DNA from: Sycon ciliatum
Lineage: Eukaryota; Porifera; Calcarea; Leucosolenida; Sycettidae
Direction of reading: 5' to 3'
DNA length: 64,000 nt
Assembly (NCBI RefSeq): GCF_964019385.1
Contig: NC_088649.1
Span: 12,552,938 to 12,616,937 of the forward strand
The position numbers and the translations under genes are program-made. The notes beneath the pieces were generated by a model, which did no database searches, had not been told where the DNA came from, and was given only the letters and a program-made list of their open reading frames with translations. Below are positions 34,601-63,572 of the stretch, piece after piece; position 1 is the stretch's first letter, and every line of letters begins with the position of its first letter.

Positions 34601-37021
34601 GGTTGACCACTAGCCATGATGTAGTTGCAATCCCAGCAGAGAGCGCTCTACGTTTCTGCATTATTATCAGCATTGCGAAGAAGAGGTTGGGTGACACACA
34701 TTTCCCCAATTATCAGCATTGTAGTTAGAAATTTGACCGAGAGCTAACATCTCATCCAGAGTTAAACAACTCTATTCCTATCTCTGCATGATAGAAACAC
34801 TCAGTGGTACAAAGCACATTTTTTTCATGTATTCAATCTGCGCACAGAACTGTTTCGACCTTTATGGATTCGTCAGGGCAGCACAGAGAAAATGAAGTCT
34901 GGCCTGATAGTTTAAAAGCATGTATATAAATGTATTGGTGATAACAACAGAACATCAGCAAGGATAGAAAAGTGACGCATGCGCTATGTAGTCTCTGGCA
35001 TACTAAGGGTTCGGTGGGTGATAATTTCCTTGAGAACGCTTCCTGTTCATGACATCAGTACACGTGTGTAGCTTGTGTAGACAAACACTAACAGGTGTAA
35101 CTAGTATTGCTACCATTGCTGCTTAGGTGTAAGTTTACACATTCGCTTTATCACTGGCTAGAGCTGTGTTGGAAACACAACCAGCTAGGAAGTGTTGCTT
35201 GTAGCAGGCCACCACCATGATACTTGACTAACCATGTACGGGTGTTTTGTGTGTGTGTGTGTGTGTACCAGGTCATCACGGCTATACCCTGTAAAGCGGG
35301 ATTCACAGAAGCTTTTTTTGCGATGCAACACGTGATATGACGTGATCTGCAACGGACGTGTGCGATGCGAACTCGCGGAATACCATTCACAGAAGAAGTC
35401 AGCGATGCGACGATGCCTTGCAAATTGGACGCGAAGTTCAATGCAGGTGGGTACGTCACCACGGTAATCGCGCGGTTTGGTACAACTTGTACAAATTTAT
35501 AGGCGACTCTTGAACCTTTGTACAACTTTGCTGTAGAAAAGGCCAAAATCGTACGCCAAGTCGCTTGTCGCATCGCAAAAGTTGAGTCAAGCTCAACTTC
35601 TGTGATGGCCCAGTTGCGGCAGTTGCGCAGCAGGGGCGAAACCTTGCTAGCTGTATCCATGTTGCTCTCGCTCCAAGCAGGGAGAACTGGTACCCAGTTG
35701 ACCTGTGGTGTTGTGCATGCATGGTGGCTTTAACTCTCCTTCTACATAGCCAGAGGGCACAATCAGGCCTCACGATACAGTCAAACAAACATCATCGGTC
35801 CCTTGGTGTTCGTCCTAAAAAGGTTTCACTGTACAGTCGTCCCTCTCTAATCCGGCACTTGTTTATCCGGAACCCTTGCCAACCGGCGCACTTTCTGACG
35901 AAACTGATTTTTTTCGTTCGATTCCTACATCTTAATCCGGCACTTGAATTCCGCCTCCGGCAGTGACTTTTTGAAACGAATCGCTCAAACTGCACGTAGT
36001 TTGATTTCATAATCCGGCGGTCGTAAATTGCGTACCGTACAGGTGCACTCCTTGCCAGGCCAGTCTGGTCAGTGTCGCGCGCGCGGGGCCACTTCAGAGT
36101 TCAGTTCAGTTGACTCGAGTTGCGGTGCCACAATCACTGCTGCAGACCTGATTGCCATATTTTCACAATTCGCTGACAGCAAGGAGTAGTGTGCTGCCAA
36201 TTTTCAGGTGTGTGGGTGCGTGTGTGTGCAAGAGTACATGTGAACATGTTCTCTGTTTTACTTTATCACTTTATCACTGTGTATATTCCTGGAGAACAGT
36301 TGAGAATATAAAGCCGTGCACCAAATACTTGGGTTGACACTGAAAAACCCTGCGTTTTGACGTATGATACATGCATGCAATTGGGTAGGGCCGGGTCAGA
36401 GGGCAGGATTTCTTAATCCAGCACCCTCGTTAATCCAGCAGAAAACGCCGTAGCAAAAGGTGCCGGTTTAGAGAGGGACGACTGTACATGCGTTTGGATT
36501 CAAAAGCAGCAAGCGCTGGCTGTCTAAACTACATGTATGCTGATCTGGCCGTGTCATTCGGGATTGTAAAGAGTAGGCATTTCAAACAGGCAGGATGTGC
36601 AATCAGGGACCGCTTTCATCACGTGAATTTGGCCACCGGGACTACTTTGAGCAGGCAGTTTTGAGCCGCCAGAATTTGCAACCAGGAACTGTTTCAAACT
36701 CCCGTTTCTGCTTTCCGCTGTTCTTCTCATCTTCCCTTCAGGCTTATATAAATGTTCACCCTGAGAAAGAGAACTCATGGCCTATGTGAATAGGCGAATA
36801 GCGCAATCCTTTCCATAAACCAGACAGTAAATTGTCATACATCATGTGGAGGTGAGTCCACTCCAACAAGACCAACAGCAAGAAAGACCCCTGCCCCTCA
36901 AGGACAAGGTTGCTGGACTCACACTGAAAGGCGACGATTGAAAAAGCACATGTGTGCGATGGGACCATTTGTATGGCGTACATCTGCGGCTGATGAGCTA
37001 ATGAGCGGTGCAAAGGCAAAC

Positions 37022-39153: not shown

Positions 39154-39481
39154 TGCAAACAATTGCTCTGGGACAAACTTCAAACGAATCAGTCAAAGAA
39201 AAGATTTCGATTCCTGTTTGGATGTTTGCATTCTTTTCCCTCTCGATATCTTTTCATTTTTTCGAAACGTTACGTCACACCATGCACCAGCTAAAATTTT
39301 AATTTACGTCCAAACAAAGGACCAAAGAAACAAAACAAAACAAAAAAAATGAACACTGAGCTACAAAAAATAGAGACCCATCATCATAATCAGCAGGTTG
39401 ATTTGAATGGCTGTTTCAAGTGTTTGAGCTGAGAACTTACTTTACTTTTTTCTCTAGAAGTGCAAGACTCCACCTGTAAAG
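39154..39481. promoter_or_regulatory. Shared divergent promoter region of ZCCHC8 and UFC1
   Basis: 328 bp separate the two ATG codons, which point away from each other, so both transcription starts and 5' UTRs must lie here or in 5' introns. No TATA box stands out. At 39443-39460 a pyrimidine run ends in ctctag 21 bases before the UFC1 ATG; it looks like a splice acceptor, so UFC1 may have an intron in its 5' UTR. Confidence 0.6.
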
Positions 39482-39982
39482 ATGGTTGATGAGGCTACTA
39501 AGAAGACTCTTGCCAAGATTCCCTTGATGAAAACGAATGCTGGCCCTCGCGAATCGGAGAATTGGCCTATTCGTTTGAAGGAGGAATATTCAGCGATTAT
39601 TCGTTACGTACAGAGCAACAAAGAGTCTGACAGTGATTGGTTTCGCCTGCAGTCGAATAAGCAAGGGACGAAGTGGTTTGGCAAGTGCTGGTACGTCCAT
39701 GAGCTTATTCGTTACGAGTTCGACGTGGAGTTTGATATTCCGGTCACGTATCCAACAACGGCACCTGAAATCGCTCTTCCCGAGCTGGAAGGGAAAACAG
39801 CAAAGATGTACCGAGGAGGCAAGATCTGTCTAACAGATCACTTCAAGCCACTGTGGGCACGTAACGTACCTCGTTTTGGAATTCCTCATGCAATGGCACT
39901 TGGACTGGGGCCTTGGCTAGCTGTGGAAATTCCGGATCTTGTCTCCAAAGGACTTATCCAACCCAAGGATGCATCAGATTAG
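39482..39982 (+). CDS. UFC1: Ubiquitin-fold modifier-conjugating enzyme 1
   Basis: E2 enzyme that takes UFM1 from UBA5 and passes it to substrates with the UFL1 ligase at the ER (family knowledge). 166 residues, almost the length of human UFC1. The whole fold is present in one uninterrupted frame: [20 protein letters not shown] at the N-terminus, [40 protein letters not shown], then TAK at 106-108 and GGKIC with the catalytic cysteine at residue 116, and [15 protein letters not shown]. The TAK motif replaces the HPN of canonical E2s, as is known for UFC1. The start ATG at 39482 gives MVDEATKK, aligned with family N-termini. The lack of introns in the coding region is unusual next to the 13- and 15-exon neighbours; conservation is full, so a dead retrocopy is unlikely. 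Confidence 0.97.
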
Positions 39983-43753: not shown

Positions 43754-57939
<14,186 letters not shown>

Positions 57940-58821: not shown

Positions 58822-59209
58822 GGGCGCGTTCGAATTGTTACTCTTTGACTTTTCGAGGAGTTTCGTTTTTCTGAAGAGGAGGTGGTCTCTTCAGAAAAAC
58901 GAAACTCCTCGAACAACCTCATCCGACGGGAGAGGTGGATTACAATTTACATGTAGCTACGGAGTACGTAGTTCTGAAGACGGTTTGGAATAGCTACGTC
59001 ATGACTGTGTAAATCGAGATGGTCGATCTGATCGGACGTCATCATTGCCATGACAATTCCACTGAAAAAGCTAACAAGAAACAAGAGTACAATCATGAAA
59101 ACCTGATGTACTCTTGTCTTGATAGAAACCGTTTTAATGGGACACTTCAAGTACTTGAACCTCTTCCAAAAATGTGTTCGAACAGTTGATGAAGACAATT
59201 CGAACGCCC
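58822..59209. mobile_element. Foldback element with GGGCG...TTCGAATTGT termini and perfect internal hairpin
   Basis: Ends gggcgcgttcgaattgt and acaattcgaacgccc are inverted, with a two-base indel. Inside, 58852-58878 and 58887-58913 form a perfect 27-bp stem around an 8-base loop. An 83-codon minus frame (59198-58947) covers the right half, with a hydrophobic segment FMIVLLFLVSFFSGIVMAMM; it has no family match and its relation to transposition is unknown. Confidence 0.65.
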
Positions 59210-60513: not shown

Positions 60514-60691
60514 TTATTTCCGCTTCCACTTCGGGGCTCCACGAAAGCCACCGCGGAAGCCACCACGGCCCCCTCTACCCCGACCTCGTCCCCGGGCGGC
60601 TCCAATGGCGGGACGGGCGTGTTCGCGGCGCTCTCTCTTGTGAGCGCGTAGCTTGTCCTCCTGCAGCTTTTCTTCAGCAGTCTGTCATCAT

Positions 60692-60741
<50 letters not shown>

Positions 60742-60778
60742 ACGTGCGCACACACACACACACACACATACACACGTG

Positions 60779-60848
<70 letters not shown>

Positions 60849-63572
60849 GAACAATAGAAGTATTTCTTGCGTCGGCAAAAAGTGCTCAATGTCCTAAGAC
60901 AGAGCGGGGTTATACACTCAGACACAAAGGATCTCCAAGTTTCTCAGTGTTGCTACTCTGAGTTTCGTGCAAAAGCACTCTTCAGGCAACTTACTCTTCT
61001 CTCACATCAGTATCCCTTTACATACCAGAAAAGACGAAAAGAAGCACCCTAGGTGGGAATCACAGGTGGAGAAAAGAAGCACGCTAGCCAGTCTAGGTGG
61101 GAATCACAGGTGAAGATAAATGTGGCAAGTGTGGTAGTGTGAGCAATCGCGCAGGCCGGGTGGTGTGCATAAAGTGAAGTAGGATGCATGCACATTAGAT
61201 AGCAGGAGTTCTGTATAATATTATGTGTAACAGATAGCAAGCGCAGTCTACAGTTCAGGTCACCTCCGATAGGAGGTACTTGGTGCTGTGGCGACATTTT
61301 GTGACCAGGCTGCATCTGGTGTTGAGGAGCGATGCCTTGTCACTCTTCATTATGCCCCACACAGAAACAGCACAGAATTGTCAAAGCATGCATGGGCATT
61401 GAAGGAGGCAGGTGAAGACGTCAACATCTCGTGGAGAATCAGGCAGAGATCCAGCGCCTACAAAAGAACCTCGAAGCGGTGCAACCTATGCCTATCGGAG
61501 AAGATCGCCATAATGAAGAGTGACAAGGCATCGCTCCTCAACACCAGATGCAGCCTGGTCACAATATGTCGCCACAGCACCAAGTACCTCCTATCGGAGG
61601 TGACCTGAACTGTAGACTGCGCTTGCTATCTGTTACACATAATATTATACAGAACTCCTGCTATCTAATGTGCATGCATCCTACTTCACTTTATGCACAC
61701 CACCCGGCCTGCGCGATTGCTCACACTACCACACTTGCCACATTTATCTTCACCTGTGATTCCCACCTAGACTGGCTAGCGTGCTTCTTTTCTCCACCTG
61801 TGATTCCCACCTAGGGTGCTTCTTTTCGTCTTTTCTGGTATGTAAAGGGATACTGATGTGAGAGAAGAGTAAGTTGCCTGAAGAGTGCTTTTGCACGAAA
61901 CTCAGAGTAGCAACACTGAGAAACTTGGAGATCCTTTGTGTCTGAGTGTATATATATATATATATACACACCTCACACATACACATATACACACACGAGC
62001 ACACATACACGCACACAAACAATGAAAATCAGATCAGGCTATACGGCAGAGAGCAACTAGGAACCATACATGCACGACCGAATTGACATGGTGTTTATAA
62101 AGGAATCCCGTTGGTACAGCAGAGGGCAGTGTGTAATGCAGCCCTAGTCTATATACCATAAAAGGCCTGTAATAAGGCTCTGGGCGGAAACGTAAGTGAA
62201 GGTCCAGAACACGGGCGTTAATTTGGGCCCAGGCGTTATTTCCGGTGAAATCAGACTGATTTTCAAATCAACTGTACTACGTACGAGGTTAGCGCAGTGC
62301 ACTGTATACTGTACTATCGTGTCGTGCATACGCCACCCTCTGTACTGAGCCTGCACGTCTGTCCATGGGCGTTCACATAGAGGTGGGCTAGGAAATGGGA
62401 CAAGAGTGTCAACACATGGCACCTGGGCGTGTACACAGGTAGTGGGCGTTATAGAGGGTGGGCGTTATAGAGGGTGGGCGTTATAGAGGGTGGGTGTTAT
62501 AGAGGGTGGGTGTTATAGAGGGTGGGTGTTATAGAGGGTGGGTGTTATAGAGGGTGGACGTTATAGAGGGTGGACGTTATAGAGGGTGGACGTTATAGAG
62601 GGTGGACGTTATAGAGGGTGGGCGTTATAGAGGGTGGACGTTATAGAGGGTGGACGTTATAGAGGGTGGGCGTTATAGAGGGTGGGCGTTATAGAGGGTG
62701 GGCGTTATAGAGGGTGGGTGTTATAGAGGGTGGGCGTTATAGAGGGTGGACGTTATAGAGGGTGGGTGTTATAGAGGGTGGGTGTTATAGAGGGTGGGTG
62801 TTATAGAGGGTGGACGTTATAGAGGGTGGACGTTATAGAGGGTGGACGTTATAGAGGGTGGGCGTTATAGAGGGTGGACGTTATAGAGGGTGGACGTTAT
62901 AGAGGGTGGGCGTTATAGAGGGTGGGTGTTATAGAGGGTGGGTGTTATAGAGGGTGGGTGTTATAGAGGGTGGGTGTTATAGAGGGTGGGTGTTATAGAG
63001 GGTGGGTGTTATAGAGGGTGGGTGTTATAGAGGGTGGGTGTTATAGAGGGTGGGTGTTATAGAGGGTGGGTGTTATAGAGGGTGGACGTTATAGAGGGTG
63101 GACGTTATAGAGGGTGGGCGTTATAGAGGGTGGACGTTATAGAGGGTGGACGTTATAGAGGGTGGGCGTTATAGAGGGTGGGTGTTATAGAGGGTGGGTG
63201 TTATAGAGGGTGGGTGTTATAGAGGGTGGGTGTTATAGAGGGTGGGCGTTATAGAGGGTGGGTGTTATAGAGGGTGGGTGTTATAGAGGGTGGGTGTTAT
63301 AGAGGGTGGGTGTTATAGAGGGTGGGCGTTATAGAGGGTGGGTGTTATAGAGGGTGGACGTTATTAGAAGCTTTTACGATATGGATACAGATATCGGATG
63401 GGACAGTTGCCCCACGAGGCGTCGAGCCTGATAAAATTTAATATCAGCTAGGCACACCATAGATGTTACCTTAACGGCGAATGTTATCTGCTTGCTGCCG
63501 TGTCCGCCATCCGACAGACTGCTACGTATCACATCACCGTCTTCACGGACATCACGCAGACGAGAGCCAAAG
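60514..63572 (-). CDS. C-terminal exons of a NOL10/Enp2-like nucleolar protein (5' part outside window)
   Basis: Two exons on the minus strand: 63572-63470 (acceptor gagtag, enters in phase 2, donor AAG/GTAACA) and 60681-60514 (acceptor gatgacag, TAA at 60514-60516), joined in phase 0. The peptide reads FGSRLRDVREDGDVIRSSL, then GSKQITFAVK, then TAEEKLQEDKLRAHKRERRE, followed by an RG-rich tail (GRGRGRGGRGGFRGGFRG) ending KWKRK. The order 'G-S-K-x-(I/M)-T-F, then charged helix with ERR' resembles the C-terminus of NOL10 (yeast Enp2), a WD40 protein of 40S ribosome biogenesis. The RG tail and basic end fit a nucleolar RNA-binding protein. Identification rests on about 85 residues, so the family name is tentative. 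The 2.8-kb intron contains a retroelement dimer and a transposon. Confidence 0.5.
60686..60850. repeat. (AC)n/(TA)n compound microsatellite
   Basis: AC repeats with short interruptions end in about ten TA units. They begin just inside the last intron of the NOL10-like gene, within 10 bases of its acceptor. A short (TA)n also borders the other side of the retroelement dimer at 61950-61965. Confidence 0.95.
60949..60990 (-). ncRNA. Minimal hammerhead ribozyme, minus-strand arm
   Basis: Exact copy, on the minus strand, of the 42-nt motif at 61873-61914, with the same core boxes, stem II and two-pair stem III. Reading 5' to 3' on the minus strand it starts at 60990 and predicted cleavage lies after the A at 60954, before GCAAC (60953-60949). 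Confidence 0.8.
61873..61914 (+). ncRNA. Minimal hammerhead ribozyme, plus-strand arm
   Basis: All conserved parts are present in order: stem I strand GTTGC (61873-61877), core CTGAAGA (61878-61884), stem II GTGC/GCAC with a TTTT loop (61885-61896), GAAA (61897-61900), a two-pair stem III CT/AG closing a CAG loop (61901-61907), TA (61908-61909), and the stem I partner GCAAC (61910-61914). Predicted self-cleavage is after A61909. The very short stem III is typical of retroelement hammerheads, which are thought to work best as dimers. Confidence 0.82.
62155..63382. mobile_element. GTAAAAGC-ended transposon with an internal minisatellite
   Basis: Left end taccataaaaggcctgtaat and right end gaagcttttacgatatg are inverted, imperfect repeats; the 32-kb copy has the cleaner left end taccgtaaaagcc. 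Bases 62160-62450 align with 32190-32995. The rest of the element is the 17-bp array. No transposase; probably a non-autonomous DNA element with TA-rich insertion site. Confidence 0.6.
62447..63366. repeat. 17-bp minisatellite, about 54 units
   Basis: Unit gggtgggcgttatagag with two variable positions giving three types: ggGCGtt, ggGTGtt and ggACGtt. The order of types is not random: the block A-A-C-A-A-C recurs three times, showing copying of multi-unit segments. It lies in the last intron of the NOL10-like gene. Confidence 0.95.

Follow-up and report, generated by a model that had tools for sequence, protein, structure and literature searches.

Penelope-like elements (PLEs) are characterised by a telomerase-like reverse transcriptase and a GIY-YIG endonuclease (PMC11167929), and the hammerhead ribozymes that they carry have been reported to be active as dimers (the work of Lunse 2017, as cited in PMC7761336), their function being described as 'still a mystery' (PMC7761336). 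The protein of PAc, the Poseidon PLE of Anolis carolinensis, cuts and extends both target strands, and its reverse transcription has two start sites (PMC11167929); the Penelope of Adineta vaga has target-site duplications of 8–10 bp (PMC3846280). Mobilisation of retrozymes by PLEs has been proposed from the coexistence of the two (PMC7229834, PMC7761336), and a part in mRNA biogenesis is suspected for the conserved hammerheads of amniotes (PMC7229834). Here, we analysed a 64,000-nt stretch of the genome of the calcareous sponge Sycon ciliatum (NC_088649.1, positions 12,552,938 to 12,616,937; hereafter the window), in which two hammerheads face in opposite directions, together with sister loci elsewhere in the genome. 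Judged from its sequence, the locus is a single insertion of a Penelope-like retroelement that we call PLE1. We consider it probable that this was one two-sided insertion, in which both strands of the break were primed, and that the hammerhead processes PLE RNA and is inert at this locus.

Results

Unique element sequence fills positions 60849–61948 in head-to-head arrangement, between two 18-nt (TA)n runs that are the only runs of (TA)5 or more in the window (Table 1). Both outer ends of the insertion are 3' ends of the element abutting (TA)n, and each arm has its own fixed end site, one 43 and the other 109 nt past the hammerhead cleavage site. The arms of the inverted repeat are the same but for one position (443 of 444 are identical; T61298 faces T61565); the repeat itself, which the preliminary description placed at 60911–61952, has to be redrawn as this larger insertion, whose left arm reaches 62 nt further out. 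The 113-bp end of the pseudo-long terminal repeat (pLTR) recurs at 100% identity in at least 40 places of the 538-Mb genome (204 candidates, 40 of them scored), and two or more groups of matches are tandem arrays with a spacing of ~2590 bp. In one array unit, a frame of 758 aa runs from stop to stop and has the reverse-transcriptase motif YRDDG; 2323 homologues of this frame were found at E ≤ 1e-10 (7997 candidates scored). Among the 120 homologues listed, one (P0002 from Solemya velum, 47% identical, 73% covered) is annotated as GIY-YIG (PF01541), and the AlphaFold model of another, P0003 (pLDDT 84), has a predicted fold nearest to telomerase reverse transcriptase (3du5, E 1.6e-9, with a TM score of only 0.32–0.37). 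Searches of the open reading frames (ORFs) of the element with Pfam and NCBIfam gave no reverse-transcriptase or GIY-YIG match, and a PDB search with the protein of a sister family, PLE2, gave none. The YRDDG motif and the fold of P0003 nevertheless provide the ORF with a telomerase-like reverse transcriptase that defines a PLE, and the tandem or inverted pLTRs, the optional tail and the AT-rich target are also those of a PLE. The 170–400-nt non-coding tandem unit of a retrozyme does not describe the window element, which comes from a 2590-bp coding unit. Only the C-terminal end of the ORF, the 3' untranslated region/pLTR, the hammerhead at the pLTR/ORF junction and the tail are kept in the window, so that the hammerheads do lie in a retroelement 3' end, as had been stated, the element being a 5'-truncated PLE with pLTR and tail. 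The number and identity of its copies indicate that the element has been recently active and that the window holds a generic copy of a recent repeat.

Table 1. Features of the insertion locus, in window coordinates.
Feature	Position	Strand	Basis
Likely last intron of NOL10-like gene, holds the insertion	60682..63469	-	homology weak
Left (TA)9 target flank	60831..60848	.	sequence
Left arm: long-tailed, 5'-truncated PLE1 copy (unit ~2188 to +109)	60849..61354	-	mapped to L012 tandem unit
Long-tail part missing from right arm	60849..60910	-	62 nt unique element sequence
Start hairpin 1, TATAACCCCGCTCTGTCTTAGGACATTGAGCACTTT	60879-60914	-	long-tail part plus 60911-60914
Minimal type I hammerhead, left arm	60949..60990	-	descriptor + PLE2 covariance model
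TATA-like TATGTAAA, 34 nt upstream of hammerhead's first G	61017..61024	-	counted from 60990
Right arm: short-tailed, 5'-truncated PLE1 copy (unit ~2031 to +43)	61355..61948	+	mapped to L012 tandem unit
PLE ORF C-terminal end (SWRIRQRSSAYKRTSKRCNLCLSEKIAIMKSDKASLLNTRCSLVTICRHSTKYLLSEVT)	61355..61608	+	open-frame translation
TATA-like TATGTAAA, 34 nt upstream of hammerhead	61839..61846	+	sequence
Minimal type I hammerhead, right arm	61873..61914	+	descriptor + PLE2 covariance model
Short tail ending at reverse-transcription start site 1 (TATA at +40 to +43 past cleavage)	61915..61948	+	
Right (TA)9 target flank	61949..61966	.	sequence

The two 42-nt minimal type I hammerheads are exactly opposed and complete, in agreement with the preliminary description, and both read GTTGC-CTGAAGA-GTGC-TTTT-GCAC-GAA-ACTCAGAGT-A/GCAAC (slash, cleavage site), with the CUGANGA and GAAA core, three helices, open stem I and NUH triplet (GUA here) of their type. 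Stems I and II have 5 and 4 bp, as counted earlier; stem III has 3 bp instead of 2 once the A15.1–U16.1 pair, left out of that count, is included. Cleavage is predicted after A61909 on the plus strand and after A60954 on the minus strand, i.e. between 60954 and 60953. A full descriptor (CTGANGA, GAAA, three stems) found just these two matches over the 64 kb and 3 in total in 400 dinucleotide shuffles, which upholds the earlier view that a chance occurrence is very improbable, and a covariance model built from PLE2 recovered both copies at 43.4 bits (E 1.9e-13; next best, E 0.42). Two search results speak against the identification: in the window no Rfam family reached its gathering score and no hammerhead family matched even at E ≤ 10, and a model built from retrozyme hammerheads alone ranked the window copies second and third, at E 0.26. 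Rfam covariance models were the check originally proposed for the motif, and to the letter their outcome is negative. This silence nonetheless carries little weight, because 196 kb of sister loci, in which the descriptor finds dozens of well-formed hammerheads, likewise gave none at gathering score with the same models; at E ≤ 10 these models gave sub-threshold hammerhead matches at one retrozyme there. Rfam is blind or nearly blind to this hammerhead class. The two hammerheads of the window are therefore confirmed as sequence motifs, with catalysis predicted.

Genome-wide, the pattern TGCCTGANGAN12GAAAN7TA has 345 + 367 = 712 matches, and its reversed control 0 + 0. Neighbouring hammerheads at most 5 kb apart among the 100 matches listed are head to head in 13 cases and tail to tail in none, as counted by eye, and 45 distinct sequences from the same 100 were aligned. 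Stems II and III covary across these variants with a score reached by 0 of 500 shuffles, a control inflated by the relatedness of the sequences; with slid partners as control, 81.7% of cells are paired in the true register versus at most 54.9%. The outermost pair of stem II is unpaired in 40 of the 45 variants and is G–C in PLE1. Pair 15.4–16.4 (UA in 26, CG in 14, UG in 2, other in 3) encloses 1 nt and cannot close a hairpin, and therefore forms only between copies in a dimer, which fits the dimer activity reported for PLE hammerheads (PMC7761336). PLE2, whose protein is 52% identical, keeps the hammerhead with stem II altered on both sides. This compensation and the covariation indicate that the hammerhead is under selection; it would probably process PLE RNA as a dimer or with the aid of the PLE protein.

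To describe the insertions themselves, 20 loci and then further small stretches were mapped onto one genomic tandem unit or by eye. The scored outer ends of PLE1 fall at +43 or +109 past the cleavage site and, with the left end of L015a as the only exception, abut TATATA (30 of the 31 checked). A third family, PLE3, has its outer ends near +38 and near +97. Target duplications of 13–16 bp are present at 6 of its 8 loci; at the other two, L043 and L044, no more than 8 and 9 bp are shared. One short end is combined with one long end in 17 of 19 PLE1 and 8 of 8 PLE3 insertions, giving 25 of 27 (P 2.8e-6 versus 50:50). Eight of the 27 (L038–L045) were chosen for closely spaced hammerheads, and L046, L047, L048 and L034/L049 as neighbouring pairs, a choice by hammerhead proximity that has no known reason to favour mixed tails; one-sided copies (e.g. 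L009, L016, L017, L023 and L025) stand outside the count. Of the 14 discordant pairs examined, 6, among them the window, have the longer tail on the less deep arm, the difference in depth exceeding 20 nt in 5 of the 6; that arm carries ~62 nt with no counterpart in the deeper arm, and so could not have been copied from it. Within pairs, the arms are identical at 2350/2350 positions in L014, 850/850 in L029 and 684/684 in L028, between-locus medians being 98.4–98.7%, and this identity, set against a typical between-locus difference of 1–2%, suggests one template RNA or one source.

We propose that the PLE endonuclease would open both strands of a (TA)n run, that each free 3' end would prime reverse transcription of PLE RNA, from start site 1 on one side and from site 2 on the other, and that the two 5'-truncated cDNAs would then be joined head to head, leaving each arm with the pLTR/ORF junction and its minimal type I hammerhead. 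A hairpin of the form GCTC-stem-loop-UU-GAGC lies directly 3' of the start sites read, and its outer GCTC/GAGC stem forms in 6 of 6 single folds, with a z-score below −2 only in the two PLE1 folds; MAFFT misaligned these hairpins, and also the PLE2 hammerhead with those of the retrozymes, so these alignments were left unused and the hairpins judged by single folds. Two TTGAGC copies are spaced 60 nt apart in PLE1, 63 in PLE2, 67 in retrozyme A and 65 in retrozyme B, where the second has no intact GCTC; only one was found in the PLE3 leader read. As far as seen, the second start site is used in PLE1 and PLE3 only.

The two retrozymes are tandem repeats of 226 and ~236 bp with type I hammerheads in sister loci, retrozyme A being the 226-bp repeat, which matches at least 171 stretches of the genome. 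Among the matches listed, all 33 of its partial units with a start at query position 1 stop at 49–51, which corresponds to start site 1, and in the fetched loci 22 site-1 ends run into (TA)n as against 0 of 15 site-2 sequences. Autonomous-type PLEs and retrozymes have hammerhead, start hairpin and target in common, which supports the suggested mobilisation of the latter by the former. The window also contains a decayed retrozyme-type hammerhead at 34838–34881 (minus strand), with the core kept and stem II mismatched (45.8 bits, E 2.2e-11 with the retrozyme model).

The other end of the RNA may be marked by L038–L045, eight close head-to-head pairs whose arms break off at GTTGCC, where the hammerhead starts, or a few bases from it. 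These mini-insertions consist of two hammerheads plus tails, with small rearranged pieces between them in L044 and L045. TATA-like boxes precede the first G of the hammerhead by 33 nt in PLE3 (TATATA) and by 34 nt in PLE1 (TATGTAAA), and PLE2 has none at a distance of 33–34 nt. We infer that the RNA begins at the first bases of the hammerhead and that the mini-insertions are run-off copies of the mRNA leader. We lean, by a small margin, towards a fuller scheme for PLE1 and PLE3, in which GCTC-stem-UU-GAGC hairpins would set two start sites 59–66 nt apart in the leader, with the hammerhead at the RNA 5' end, and two reverse transcriptases per RNA, one at each site, would carry out coordinated two-sided target-primed reverse transcription, retrozymes being copied likewise; such coordinated priming would account for the head-to-head pLTRs and the optional tail. 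Direct use of the hammerhead-cleaved RNA 5' end was rejected, as no mapped insertion 5' end lies exactly at the cleavage site; the nearest are those of L026, a rearranged copy, 3 nt before it and of L021 ~8 nt after it. At L018:5044–5271, the sequence of a PLE arm skips from +82 of the unit to 2588, 2 nt before the cleavage site, possibly by a template switch onto a cleaved RNA end.

The placement of the insertion in a minus-strand intron of a NOL10-like gene is probably correct. Exons ending at 63470 (..GSKQITFAVK/GT) and starting at 60681 (AG/TAEEKLQ..KWKRK-stop) join in phase, and the joined 91-aa peptide finds its best PDB match in nucleolar protein 10 (7mq8 chain NW, residues 632–685), a match that runs across the splice but is weak (E 0.0074). 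The transcript of this gene would carry one sense hammerhead, as had been claimed. The suggestion that the intron could self-cleave was not supported, since the predicted fold pairs the hammerhead from end to end with the antisense arm (predicted minimum free energy −980 kcal/mol for 1136 nt with both arms, −131.5 for the sense arm alone). Self-cleavage of this intron is thus unlikely, and the hammerheads are probably inert at this locus, because a transcript in either direction contains one sense monomer and an antisense arm complementary at 443 of 444 positions. With the antisense arm left out, the modelled probability of the active fold is still only 2.6e-6 to 2.5e-5, a figure that alone does not distinguish these copies, being equally low for PLE2 and below 1e-3 for retrozymes with 100 nt of context. 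The same intron holds a 16-bp minisatellite of ~58 copies (62442–63364).

Elsewhere in the window, a 27-bp perfect hairpin with an 8-nt loop (58852–58913) has CTGAAGAG and CGAAACTC on both strands and fails the hammerhead descriptor. Exons of a DDX3/PL10-like DEAD-box helicase lie at ~44000–56000 on the minus strand, where region 51000–51530 matches DDX3X and the others were recognised by eye. A long open frame at 39458–39982 (plus strand) is possibly UFC1-like.

Discussion

Head-to-head order could also arise by fold-back, a single cDNA or an antisense template priming itself so that one arm is copied from the other, with the ends later trimmed or joined to (TA)n by microhomology. Such a process would yield the observed order and arms that are often identical, it has been proposed for the PLEs of Adineta vaga (PMC3846280), and 8 of the 14 discordant pairs are compatible with it. 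It does not provide for the other 6, the window among them, with their ~62 nt in the less deep arm and absent from the deeper one, and it was rejected as a general explanation on account of these longer tails. Random trimming would moreover leave about half of the pairs with concordant tails, compared with 2 of 27, and in PLE3 the two characteristic ends recur at duplicated targets, most of which are not TA. We thus find fold-back improbable. Several points nevertheless weigh against two-sided priming. The concordant insertions are L011 (109/109) and L034/L049 (43/43, with 1.65 kb of the middle unread), and seven head-to-head copies were excluded for outer ends that are damaged, absent or not fetched (L018, L020, L026, L027, L030, L033 and L037). 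Some between-locus comparisons are as high as those within pairs (1 of 19 for L014 and for L028, 3 of 19 for L029, 1 of 20 for the window), and three loci are uninformative or speak against one shared template: L010 (11 of 20 equally high), L019 (6 of 19; 16 mismatches and 1 gap in 1299) and L021 (6 of 20; 4 mismatches in 233). Self-priming on an antisense template is preferred in PMC3846280, and the coordination of two reverse transcriptases that would prime, on one RNA, from both sides of a staggered break is our inference.

Two further explanations concern the hammerhead itself. That it is a chance resemblance, or a non-catalytic inverted repeat, would agree with the missing Rfam match and with a monomer that folds preferentially into another structure, and is hardly credible in view of the 712 genome-wide matches against 0 for the reversed control, the covariation of the stems and the presence of the motif at the same place in several PLE families. 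A service to the host, by cleavage of the NOL10-like pre-mRNA, would find a core and stems that are intact and one sense copy in the transcript, with an intron placement that is somewhat supported. We judge it very unlikely, since the insertion is a generic copy of a recent repeat found at 100% in at least 40 places, the RNA folds as a duplex with the antisense arm, the sense copy is single whereas the covariation implies a dimer, and the PAc hammerhead needed protein, with no cleavage in its absence (PMC11167929). Two-sided insertion of a PLE whose own RNA the hammerhead processes remains our preferred reading.

The sister copies bear on why PLE insertions are head to head, on the role of the PLE hammerhead and on whether PLEs move small hammerhead retrozymes, and the fixed start sites, recognisable hairpins and one-of-each rule make these questions testable in the existing in vitro PLE system. 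As far as our searches go, the near-strict one-of-each rule is apparently undescribed: no report of it or of the start hairpins was recognised in a literature search at the level of abstract openings, with subscription papers mostly outside its scope.

As a ribozyme, the hammerhead is a new family of a known sort. It shares with the minimal type I hammerheads of PLEs (Cervera and De la Pena 2014; Lunse et al. 2017), as presented in PMC7761336, PMC6155905 and PMC11167929, the pseudo-LTR position, the minimal stem III, the tandem copies and the dimer logic; it differs, in a comparison made through citing papers, by its new families, by a stem III covariation that needs a dimer and by the TATA-like box 33–34 nt upstream in PLE1 and PLE3. 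Like PAc (PMC11167929), the elements have the hammerhead at the pLTR/ORF junction, an AT-rich target and two internal reverse-transcription start sites that explain the optional tail. Unlike it, the scored two-sided insertions nearly always use both sites, one per side, and the start sites stand beside a GCTC..TTGAGC hairpin, whereas for PAc an AC-rich stem loop has been described as the start. Head-to-head pLTRs with a tail on one inverted pLTR are also found in the Penelope of Adineta vaga (PMC3846280), for which self-priming on an antisense template was inferred; here, 6 of 14 pairs have tails that contradict simple fold-back. The metazoan non-LTR retrozymes (PMC7229834) have their like in the 226- and ~236-bp tandem repeats with type I hammerheads at the same loci, whose listed partial units end at one site, whereas the window element is a fragment of an autonomous-type PLE; the shared start hairpin links the two.

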